Positions 29,674 through 38,391 of a DNA stretch of 57,337 bases are shown piece after piece (the stretch's first letter is position 1; each line of letters opens with the position of its first letter). The DNA is taken from the NCBI GenBank assembly GCA_903880005.1, contig CAIRNV010000098.1:1-57337 (forward strand), written 5' to 3'. Below the pieces are notes generated by a model, which was given only the letters and a program-made list of their open reading frames with translations, was not told the DNA's origin and ran no database searches. Source of the stretch: an uncultured Verrucomicrobiota bacterium (GTDB lineage: Bacteria; Verrucomicrobiota; Verrucomicrobiia; Limisphaerales; UBA9464). Made by a program: the position numbers and the translations under genes.

Positions 29674-30027
29674 CCGTGTCTGCTTCCGCTGGAACCTCGC
29701 CCTTCGCTCGCCAGGGGTCCGGGACCGGCGCTTTGCCCATGCTGTAGGCCGCGTGCCCTCACGCGGCGGCACGCTTGCCGCACCTCCGAGCGTCTCTGGG
29801 GCAGAGTGGCAACGGCATCCTGCCGCGGGTCCATGCCGGGCATGCGGCTGGAAGACGCTTCCACTTTCACTGGGCCGGTGGATCAGGGCTTCTGCCGGAA
29901 AACCACGGATGACACCGATGACACGGATCGGTCCAAGCCGGGAGGTCTCATCCATGGGGAAGGCGCCCAGGGCCCACGACGCCCTTGAATCCGTGTGATC
30001 CGTGTCATCCGTGGTTCTTGGCCCTTT
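29674..30027. other. Repeat-filled intergenic region
   Basis: No gene is present. It holds in order a gccgcgtgccctcacgcggc hairpin (29748-29770), an inverted relative of the 77-bp repeat (29808-29880), and a 127-bp element with ends aaaaccacggatgac and gtcatccgtggttcttgg (29895-30021). A MITE-like element follows immediately. Confidence 0.75.
29895..30021. repeat. ATCCGTG repeat element, copy 1
   Basis: The ends are inverted: ccacggatgacaccgatgac on the left and atccgtgtcatccgtgg on the right. A second copy with the same middle (gggaggtctcatccatgg) lies at 38262-38391. Confidence 0.85.
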
Positions 30028-35547: not shown

Positions 35548-36513
35548 TCAGGGCTTCGCCGCGCGCAGGCGGCTGGGCGGCTCGAGGTAACGGAACGGGT
35601 TGCTGGGGTTGTCGTTGTCGTAGGCGAACGCATCCCGGTGCTGGAGGAAGTACTTCAGCTCGTCCGAAGGGATGGCGAAGCCCAGTCCCTCGCCAAACGT
35701 GAGCTTCATGTTGGTGACGCCCACGACCTCGCCCCGCAGGTTGAAGAGCGGGCCGCCGGAATTCCCGGGGTTGATCTGGGCCGTCGTCTGGAGGTAGAGC
35801 GACCCGCCCATTTGCCGGGTCTTGGTGCTCAGGATGCCCTCGGTGACCGTGCGCTCGAGCCCCAACGGGCTCCCGATGGCAAACACGCGCTCGCCCACGG
35901 ACAACGCCTCCGTGTCGCCCACCAACACGCGCTTGAAGCGAGGCGCGCCCGGGTCCTCCACCTTCAGCAACGCCAGGTCCGCGAACTTGTTCATGGCCAC
36001 GATGCGGACGTCCTTGTAGCTGCGTCGCTCGAGCTGCGCGTCCTTCTGGTGATAGACCTCCACCGAGATGCGCGTCTCGCCCTCGATGACGTGGAAGTTG
36101 GTGATGAGATGGCCGTCCTCGGCGATGAAGAAGCCGGAGCCGACGCCGCTGGGCGCCCGGACTTGGACGACCGACTCGCCCAGGGACTGCACCAACTCGC
36201 GGACGGGGCGCTCGACGGGCGGCGTGGTGGCGACGGCAAACAAGCCGGAGCGCGATTCCTGCACGGCCGGGGCCTTCGCGCCGCGCGGGTCGGGCGTGGC
36301 CTCCTTGGAGACCTTCACGATCTCCGCACGCGGCACGGCCAGGACGGTGAAGCCGAGGTCCAGGTAGAGGTGGTCCTTCTTTTCCGCCACGACCTTGGCG
36401 CTGATGGATCCGCCGTCGCGCAATTGAAGGGTCTCGGCCTGGACCGCGAAGCCCCAGGCCAGCGCCAGCAGGGGCCAACCCGCCCGCGTGGCCTTCGCAG
36501 TGAACTCGCTCAT
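35548..36513 (-). CDS. HtrA/DegP-like trypsin-fold serine protease
   Basis: The exported 321-residue protein starts with a signal sequence (WPLLALAWGFAVQAE) and a small region with QLRDGGSISAKVV. A trypsin-like protease domain follows with His141 (HLITNFHVIEG), Asp179 (NKFADLALLKV) and Ser252 (INPGNSGGPLFNLRG). The usual C-terminal PDZ domain of DegP is absent; the chain ends soon after GEGLGFAIPSDELKYFL. It is probably periplasmic. It is a separate transcription unit upstream of ptsI with 71 bp between them. Confidence 0.9.
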   Translation of the reverse strand: MSEFTAKATRAGWPLLALAWGFAVQAETLQLRDGGSISAKVVAEKKDHLYLDLGFTVLAVPRAEIVKVSKEATPDPRGAKAPAVQESRSGLFAVATTPPVERPVRELVQSLGESVVQVRAPSGVGSGFFIAEDGHLITNFHVIEGETRISVEVYHQKDAQLERRSYKDVRIVAMNKFADLALLKVEDPGAPRFKRVLVGDTEALSVGERVFAIGSPLGLERTVTEGILSTKTRQMGGSLYLQTTAQINPGNSGGPLFNLRGEVVGVTNMKLTFGEGLGFAIPSDELKYFLQHRDAFAYDNDNPSNPFRYLEPPSRLRAAKP

Positions 36514-36589
36514 GGGCGCACGCTACCGAGGACGTCCCCGCGTGGCAACGCGCCCGCGGCCGCCCAAAATGAAGTCCGCGGAGGTTGAA

Positions 36590-36788
36590 CAATCCCGCTT
36601 GCGAGCCGTCGATTAAGACGTTGGTTGGAATCGTGCTCGCCAAGGGTTGGCAGAGGGGCCGTGCTGGGCGGCAGAGTGCGGGCACGTAGTCTCCAGTTGG
36701 CTCTGCCGCCGATCTGAGCGCCTCGGTGAAGGCGTCCTTGGCCCCATCACCAGGGCCGGACCCGAGTGGGTCCGGCCCTTTATCTTTT
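36590..36788 (+). ncRNA. Candidate structured RNA ending in an intrinsic terminator
   Basis: The 350 bp before the TPR gene contain nested complementary segments. ggggcc (36655-36660) can pair with ggcccc (36740-36745). ggcggcagag (36667-36676) is fully complementary to ctctgccgcc (36701-36710). gcgcctcggtgaaggcgt (36718-36735) is a hairpin. A perfect 11-bp terminator stem follows. This is the layout of a small RNA or a leader attenuator/riboswitch. I could not match it to 6S, SRP, tmRNA, RNase P or a riboswitch I know. The 5' end is approximate; a TTGAAC at about 36584 could belong to a promoter. Confidence 0.5.
36753..36788 (+). terminator. Rho-independent terminator
   Basis: gggccggaccc (36753-36763), loop gagt, gggtccggccc (36768-36778), then tttatctttt. 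The stem is a perfect 11 bp of mostly GC pairs and the U-rich tail is clear. It lies upstream of the TPR gene, so it ends an RNA made before that gene rather than the gene itself. Confidence 0.85.
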
Positions 36789-36865
36789 GAAGCCGCATCC
36801 CCCGCCGGGCATCCGGCCGCAACTTGCCCGAGACGTCCCACGGCGCCCCTGCTAGCCTCTCGCAC

Positions 36866-37861
36866 ATGGGCGACCTGCTCGTCGGCGCGCTGAGCGTCCT
36901 CCTCTCCACCAACGCCCCCATGGCGTTGTCCAATCGCGTCGCCCAGGCCGCAACCTCCCTCCCCATCCCCCACGCCGGCCCCGACACGCAGGACCCCCGC
37001 TATGCCGAGCTGCGCGTCGTCATGGAAGCCGACGACGCGGCCGAGGACGAAATCGGGCGCTGGCTCGCCGAGCGCGAGGCCCTGCCGCCGGACGACCCCC
37101 TGCGGGAGACGGACGCGGCGTTCCGGCGACGCGTGGACGAACGCAACGCACGGGTCCGTTCCGCCTACGAGACGCTCATCCAGCGTCACCCGGCCTATGC
37201 GCCCGCCCGCAACGCCTTCGCGGCGTTCCTCGGCGAGACGGGCGACGAGGAGGGAGCCATCCAGCAGCTCGAGAAGGCGTCCGCGCTCGACCCCAACGAC
37301 CCCTCCATCTGGAACAACCTCGCCAACCACTACGGGCACGTGGGACCCATCGAGAAGGCCTTCCCCGCCTACGAGAAGGCCATCGCACTCCAGCCCTTCG
37401 AGCCCACCTATCGCTACAACCTCGGCACCGTCGTCTTCCTCTTCCGCAAGGACGCCATGGCCTACTACCGGTGCGACGAGGCCGCCGTGTTCCGGCGCGC
37501 CCTCGACCACTACCGCGAGGTCCGCCGCCTGCGGCCCCACAACTTCCGCTATGCGTTCGACTTCGCCCAGACCTGGTACGGCGTGAAGCCCGAGCCCGCC
37601 GACACCCCCGAGAAACGGACCGTCGCCGAACGTTCCCTCGCCGAGTCCGCGCTCGGTGCATGGCACGAGGCGCTCGCCTTGGCCGACAACGAACGGGACC
37701 GCGACGGCATCTTCCTCCACCTCGCCCGATGGCATCTGCGCCTTGGCCAATGGGACGCCGTGCGCACCAACCTCGCCCTCGTCGCCCGGCCGGAACACCT
37801 CGTGTTGAAGGCGCGGCTGCAACGGAACCTCGAGGAGAAGGAACCCAAGCCCACGCGGTAG
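36866..37861 (+). CDS. Exported TPR-repeat protein
   Basis: The 331-residue protein has a hydrophobic N-terminus (GDLLVGALSVLLSTNAP) that may be a signal peptide. Tetratricopeptide repeats are clear: YAPARNAFAAFLGETGDEEG, then QQLEKASALDPNDPSIWNNL, AFPAYEKAIALQPFEPTYRY, and further degenerate repeats around HYREVRRLRPHNFRYAFDF. It is likely a protein-interaction scaffold; no enzymatic domain is visible. The start at 36866 was preferred over an ATG at 36824 because it begins the hydrophobic stretch. It lies about 78 bp after the terminator of the candidate RNA, which could control it by attenuation. Confidence 0.75.
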   Translation: MGDLLVGALSVLLSTNAPMALSNRVAQAATSLPIPHAGPDTQDPRYAELRVVMEADDAAEDEIGRWLAEREALPPDDPLRETDAAFRRRVDERNARVRSAYETLIQRHPAYAPARNAFAAFLGETGDEEGAIQQLEKASALDPNDPSIWNNLANHYGHVGPIEKAFPAYEKAIALQPFEPTYRYNLGTVVFLFRKDAMAYYRCDEAAVFRRALDHYREVRRLRPHNFRYAFDFAQTWYGVKPEPADTPEKRTVAERSLAESALGAWHEALALADNERDRDGIFLHLARWHLRLGQWDAVRTNLALVARPEHLVLKARLQRNLEEKEPKPTR

Positions 37862-37894
37862 TGTCGGGTCTCATCGAACCAAGAACGGCACTTA

Positions 37895-37974
37895 GCCGGG
37901 ACGATTCAGTTGGGAGGGAAGTGATTGCGAAGCAGATCGAGCAAGCACGACCGCTCCAATTGAATCGTCCCGGC
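37895..37974. repeat. Palindromic MITE-like element, short class (80 bp)
   Basis: It starts GCCGGGACGATTCAGTTGG and ends CCAATTGAATCGTCCCGGC. The flanking trinucleotides are TTA (37892-37894) and TGA (37975-37977), both of the form TNA. It lies 34 bp after the TPR gene. Confidence 0.92.
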
Positions 37975-38261
37975 TGAGGGATGGGATCCCCCAAGCCCTT
38001 CGGTGGCGCTGAACGCTTCGCCCATGCTGTGGGCCGCGTGACCACAAGCGGCGGCCAGGATGCGCAACCCTGCGCGCTGGGTGAAGCCACGCGGCTATGG
38101 GCGTTCACCTCCAGTCGCTTCAACTTGTTCCAACAACCGGGCTCTGCTCCCAACCGGCTCGCCCTGCAACTCCTCGCGCGAGGAACCACGCATCACGCGG
38201 ATCTCTTCACCTCGATGTGAGGCCAGACGTGTGCCGTGGAGGGCCGGTGTGTCTGGGGTTT

Positions 38262-38391
38262 GCCGGGAAAACCACGGACGGCACGGATGGCACGGATAAA
38301 GGCCAAGCTGGGAGGTCCCATCCATGGCGCATGCGCCAAGACCCCACGACGCCCATGAATCCGTGTGATCCGTGTCATCCGTGGTTCTTGG
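38262..38391. repeat. ATCCGTG repeat element, copy 2
   Basis: This is a diverged copy of 29895-30021. The right arm is nearly identical; the left arm has changed to ccacggacggcacggatgg. Confidence 0.85.

Follow-up and report, generated by a model that had tools for sequence, protein, structure and literature searches.

A candidate free-standing, double-pseudoknotted RNA family in an order of Verrucomicrobiota

Relation to described RNAs

H-type pseudoknot riboswitches, such as SAM-II and preQ1-II, are built around a compact pseudoknot whose loops contain conserved segments, while HDV-like double-pseudoknot ribozymes accommodate nested crossing helices within a small RNA. The RNA described here is encoded in a 57,337-nucleotide (nt) stretch of DNA from an uncultured Verrucomicrobiota bacterium, referred to here as the window. 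Like the SAM-II and preQ1-II types, it forms a compact pseudoknot of the H type whose loop segments are conserved, but it is larger, carries its own promoter element and terminator, shows no tie to a downstream gene and has no Rfam match. Its helices nest and cross within a small RNA, as in the HDV-like ribozymes; however, the order of the strands differs, the 3′ strand of helix A lying within the loop of helix C, and again no Rfam family matches. 6S RNA (RF00013) is comparable as a free-standing transcript of approximately 160 to 190 nt that is mostly present in a single copy per genome, yet its sequence and fold are different, the RNA studied here having two pseudoknots and the true 6S RNA being encoded elsewhere. 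Finally, the clade-specific orphan structured RNAs in Rfam are similar in being restricted to a single clade, in resting on comparative covariation and in having no assigned function, but our RNA matches none of the 4227 models of Rfam 15.

At the gathering threshold, no Rfam 15 family was found in the window or at 14 other loci carrying the RNA, in keeping with the initial annotation, which had left the element unassigned. Permissive Rfam scans returned weak matches only, mostly to terminator stems, and those to the terminator hairpin were discarded as generic GC stems with scores far under the cut-offs. A divergent tmRNA, RNase P RNA or SRP RNA was also rejected, all three having been located elsewhere in the same genome. 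One survey counted 8 of 549 sRNA families in the PVC group, to which the Verrucomicrobia belong (PMC9029176). In the literature on Verrucomicrobia, which was covered in part, we found no description of such an RNA. Partial coverage and absence from Rfam do not prove that the RNA was previously unseen, and we refer to the family as apparently new in the sense that we found no description of it.

The initial annotation had also entertained a 6S-like shape, and an RNA of this kind would bind RNA polymerase. The size is indeed similar, as is the outline of a closing stem, an internal region and an apical stem. Nevertheless, the 6S-type match of this genome lies on another contig (G000:C448:19076-19254), where its 43.4 bits fall slightly short of the 46.4 set as the Rfam gathering cut-off, no RF00013 match was found within 36500-36900 at E values of up to 10, and the fold is pseudoknotted, all of which renders a 6S-like RNA extremely improbable. 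The 6S RNAs of several relatives likewise score just below 46.4 bits, and Rfam-based annotation would miss them.

Boundaries and fold of the RNA

We are nearly certain that positions 36620-36785 on the plus strand of the window represent one copy of a family of free structured RNAs, with a predicted transcript of approximately 166 nt. An HtrA-like protease gene lies on one side of the RNA in the window and a TPR gene on the other, the RNA standing by itself between them, and the features of the region are as follows.

35548-36513, minus strand: HtrA/trypsin-like protease gene (Pfam Trypsin_2; HtrA-type NCBIfam domains match the protein below their cut-offs), divergent, upstream of and outside the RNA
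36585-36613, plus strand: putative promoter, TTGAAC (36585-36590), 17-nt spacer, GTCGAT (36608-36613)
36620-36785, plus strand: predicted RNA transcript, limits from the promoter element, alignments and terminator
36632-36640, plus strand: helix A, 5′ strand (pseudoknot), covarying, pairs with 36678-36686
36641-36654, plus strand: conserved unpaired segment CAAGGGUUGGCAGA (consensus in the order UUUAGGGUUGGCAKA), near-invariant columns in 89 members
36655-36660, plus strand: helix B, 5′ strand, 6 bp, pairs with 36740-36745
36667-36676, plus strand: helix C, 5′ strand, 10 bp, pairs with 36701-36710
36678-36686, plus strand: helix A, 3′ strand, inside the loop of helix C, supported by covariation
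36694-36700, plus strand: conserved segment CAGUUGG, directly 5′ of the helix C 3′ strand
36701-36710, plus strand: helix C, 3′ strand, covariation with 36667-36676
36718-36735, plus strand: hairpin D, CG pairs of the stem nearly invariant, upper stem covarying
36725-36729, plus strand: helix E, 5′ strand (pseudoknot), GGUGA, in the loop of hairpin D
36740-36745, plus strand: helix B, 3′ strand, covariation with 36655-36660
36747-36751, plus strand: helix E, 3′ strand, UCACC, in the 3′ tail
36752-36779, plus strand: intrinsic terminator stem-loop (terminator scan), 12 bp, followed by T-rich TTATCTTTT at 36780-36788
36866-37861, plus strand: TPR-repeat protein gene (Pfam TPR), downstream of and outside the RNA, not the conserved neighbor in relatives

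Homologs were compared in stages. Thirty oriented sequences aligned well across approximately 165 nt, and 28 of them were used to build a covariance model, R1, whose match defines the RNA core as 36620-36751; a second model, R2, was built on 89 members. At a similar distance upstream of the core, the hexamer TTGAAC is present in 68 of the 89 members, compared with 1.3 expected from shuffling, and the members carrying it have a variable −10-like stretch approximately 17 nt further 3′. A generic sigma-70 scan of the window did not call the putative promoter at 36585-36613, and its assignment is therefore comparative and not based on consensus. We infer that transcription would start approximately 7 nt past the −10 sequence. 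At the other end, a terminator stem begins 0 to 4 nt past the core in every one of the 89 members. Promoter and terminator signals of its own are a hallmark of a free-standing structured noncoding RNA gene, and their presence in 68/89 and 89/89 members, respectively, leads us to regard the locus as a free RNA gene. A small coding gene was rejected: each frame of the core contains a stop codon in most members (70 to 77 of 89), and across the 89 sequences no reading frame was found to stay open along the core.

The folding energy of the single sequence was moderately better than that of shuffled sequences only (z of −3.0 for 36584-36866 and −2.5 for 36620-36785), and single-sequence folding misses the true structure because pseudoknots cannot form there. 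Comparative evidence was decisive for the pairing. Over the five helices and 89 homologs, standard pairs occupy 93.9% of the pair cells, while the shuffle mean is 82.3%, and two-sided changes occur at 34 of 37 pairs; not one of 500 shuffles reached any of these measures, and sliding the partner strand by 1 to 3 columns as a control lowered the pairing to 34 to 52%. RNAalifold recovered helices B, C and D and the terminator unprompted. All 6 pairs of helix B (99.2% paired) and all 10 pairs of helix C (92.5% paired) carry two-sided changes in the 89 members. Since only B, C and D were used in fitting this alignment, helices A and E constitute independent tests, and taken alone these two show two-sided changes at 15 of 15 pairs. 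Helix A contributes two-sided changes at 10 of 10 pairs in an alignment (A3) that was not fitted to it, and helix E is 100% paired in the 89 members, where substitutions on the two strands compensate each other, as in GCUGA/UCAGC and GGUGG/CCACC. These patterns support a double pseudoknot: helix A (9 to 10 bp) crosses both B and C, an arrangement of the H type, and helix E crosses hairpin D. A covariation-supported structure, the second hallmark of a free-standing structured noncoding RNA gene, was thus found as well. Near-invariant unpaired segments across the 89 members are UUUAGGGUUGGCAKAG, UUGCU, AGUUGG and CUUCUGA, and the GUUGG of the segment at 36694-36700 is kept in nearly all of them.

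The compensatory changes in homologs that the initial annotation had named as a check are therefore present. It had placed the paired segments 36655/36740 (6 bp) and 36667/36701 (10 bp) and the hairpin at 36718-36735 exactly where covariation now supports them. Its terminator exists and has the T-rich tail, but the stem measures 12 bp and not 11 bp. The list of structures was correct yet incomplete, since pseudoknots A and E and the upstream promoter element had been missed.

Distribution and gene neighborhood

The RNA is single-copy in the genome from which the window derives, as had been proposed for the window itself. With 36584-36790 as the query, a BLAST search gave a single clear location in each genome for most members of the window's family and also reached a small number of further families in the order. 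Model R1 detected 41 carriers of the RNA among 58 relatives; within the order it matched 170 of 320 genomes and 65 of 118 genera, usually as one copy per genome. R2 again identified 170 genomes of the order, which by our count fall into 33 family-level groups, and gave no match across 386 other genomes sampled from the phylum. Across 257 Gb of contigs from bacteria and archaea, a degenerate pattern matched 40 loci, every one labeled Verrucomicrobiota, and on the strength of such labels we place the order near Limisphaerales/Pedosphaerales. Strict filters were applied in the large genome scans. Because about half of the genomes of the order have no match, the RNA is not universally essential; most of these genomes are fragmented metagenome-assembled genomes, in which a single absence may reflect an assembly gap, yet presence is sharply bimodal. 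No match to the RNA was found in viral contigs searched with one exact pattern or in plasmids searched with one member sequence, and a phage or plasmid element was dismissed on these grounds.

Extra copies, two to five per genome, occur in unrelated contexts in one genus (L149, L150, L151, L153, L154, L158 and L120). They mostly do not have the canonical TTGAAC, and some of them may be decaying or differently transcribed. The copies in L150 and L151 are close to genes of mobile appearance, and that in L153 lies approximately 120 nt from a tRNA-Cys.

In most families other than that of the window, the RNA occupies a site between zwf-pgl and accA-manA. Among the 58 loci from outside the window's family, 30 are flanked by zwf and/or pgl on the upstream side and by accA on the downstream side; the remainder comprise 7 with the upstream part only, 6 with accA only and 15 with neither, the last including extra copies. 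The names zwf, pgl, accA and manA were assigned by NCBIfam on one locus, all above cut-off. In the window's family, the RNA is usually found 3′ of pgl, and accA-manA occupies another site: none of the 18 accA loci of this family carries the RNA, which 16 of those genomes encode elsewhere. Moreover, the next gene is convergent, unrelated and Pfam-supported in at least 10 loci (PAP2, response regulators, two tRNA synthetases, cytochrome c, menaquinone biosynthesis, an oxidoreductase and DUF1003). The comparison of loci supports zwf-pgl-RNA-accA-manA as the ancestral order, and the RNA moves independently of all four genes. Since its neighbors change, accA-manA has parted from it and convergent genes follow it, the RNA behaves as an independent gene.

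These arrangements bear on the alternative of a cis-acting leader, that is, a riboswitch or attenuator whose terminator would control the next gene, ancestrally accA, and whose pseudoknotted core would sense a metabolite. In support of this, accA lies downstream on the same strand in 36 of the 58 loci outside the window's family, and the RNA resembles riboswitch expression platforms in that a terminator comes after a compact fold whose joining segments are invariant. However, with convergent genes 3′ of the RNA, a codirectional gene does not follow in all members, and the RNA persists in genomes of the window's family whose accA has lost its company. In addition, core and terminator are compatible within one fold. 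The arms of the terminator show complementarities of 4.4 and 4.8 nt to their own core, against 4.7 and 4.7 nt to the cores of other members, and no antiterminator pairing beyond chance was detected in the 89 members; this lack of preference for the own core argues against attenuation. As the general role, a leader controlling either the TPR gene or accA was therefore rejected, and a cis-acting leader is on the whole an unlikely account, although the RNA may have a local role at accA outside the window's family. Of the two options offered by the initial annotation, the attenuator leader of the TPR gene fails on the varying neighbors, the convergent loci and the chance-level pairing of terminator and core, while the free small RNA is borne out by the promoter element, the terminator, the independent relocation and the convergent downstream genes.

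Several further elements were observed around the RNA. Some members of the window's family have, 3′ of the RNA and on the same strand, a gene for a small, cysteine-rich, zinc-ribbon-like protein of approximately 100 amino acids (L077, L081, L085, L087, L089, L093, L095, L100, L108 and L109), and in one relative a cobalamin riboswitch is located approximately 1.2 kb from the RNA (L012:2829-3021). The window itself contains an inverted repeat with 38-nt arms (GCCGGGACGATTCARTTGG ... CCAATTGAATCGTCCCGGC) at 37891-37978. Its core, GGACGATTCAATTGG, has 15 matches in the window at two or fewer mismatches, compared with 0.08 expected, and hence represents a dispersed palindromic repeat. A second dispersed inverted repeat, with the core CCACGGATGACACGGAT (9 matches versus 0.2 expected), occurs at 38270-38386 and 29903-30014.

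Proposed mode of action and significance

Taking all the evidence together, we consider the locus to be probably a free-standing, double-pseudoknotted RNA that acts in trans, with a protein as its most likely partner. According to this model, a predicted transcript of approximately 166 nt, running from the TTGAAC element to the intrinsic terminator, would fold as a compact double pseudoknot, and the pseudoknots would present the near-invariant unpaired segments UUAGGGUUGGCA, AGUUGG, UUGCU and CUUCUGA. Through these segments the folded RNA would most likely bind a protein, in a manner similar to that of 6S or CsrB-type RNAs and unlike that of Hfq-dependent antisense RNAs. In the model, the conserved unpaired nucleotides sit inside the compact fold, an arrangement more typical of RNAs recognized by proteins or ligands than of antisense RNAs, whose seed is open. 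Protein binding as such is put forward tentatively, as a plausible mode of action.

An antisense sRNA that depends on Hfq was rejected, as an Hfq homolog was found in none of the 58 relatives, while the same search found Hfq in 5 control genomes. Base pairing independent of Hfq would use the unpaired GUUGG segments against CCAAC sites of mRNA targets. The model leaves the conserved GGGUUGGCA and AGUUGG unpaired, and members of the window's family carry an additional GUUGGUUGG near the 5′ end. Yet the conserved segments lie within a constrained pseudoknot and not in an open region, and Hfq is absent from the 58 relatives, so that such pairing seems rather unlikely. Given the compact fold and the failure to find Hfq, protein binding was ranked first and Hfq-independent pairing second, ahead of catalysis or free ligand sensing and of a cis role at accA, which were rated equally low.

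A fold that interlocks two pseudoknots and leaves many near-invariant nucleotides unpaired could also suit a catalytic RNA, such as a self-cleaving ribozyme, or a stand-alone ligand-binding RNA. However, no ribozyme or riboswitch family of Rfam matches, the strand order is unlike that of the HDV-type double pseudoknot, and the terminator follows directly 3′ of the fold, which makes this reading improbable. A specific version, in which the RNA might sense a metabolite or act as a catalyst in trans and link NADPH supply (zwf-pgl) with fatty-acid synthesis (accA), we regard as doubtful; if true, such a metabolite-sensing or catalytic RNA acting in trans would constitute a new functional class of RNA.

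Collectively, the RNA is clearly neither a product of chance nor a regulator of the adjacent TPR gene. The unmined intergenic regions of uncultured phyla still contain large, well-supported RNA families. That a strongly constrained RNA is present in 33 family-level groups, usually in a single copy and with no counterpart in Rfam, suggests a function on which the order depends.
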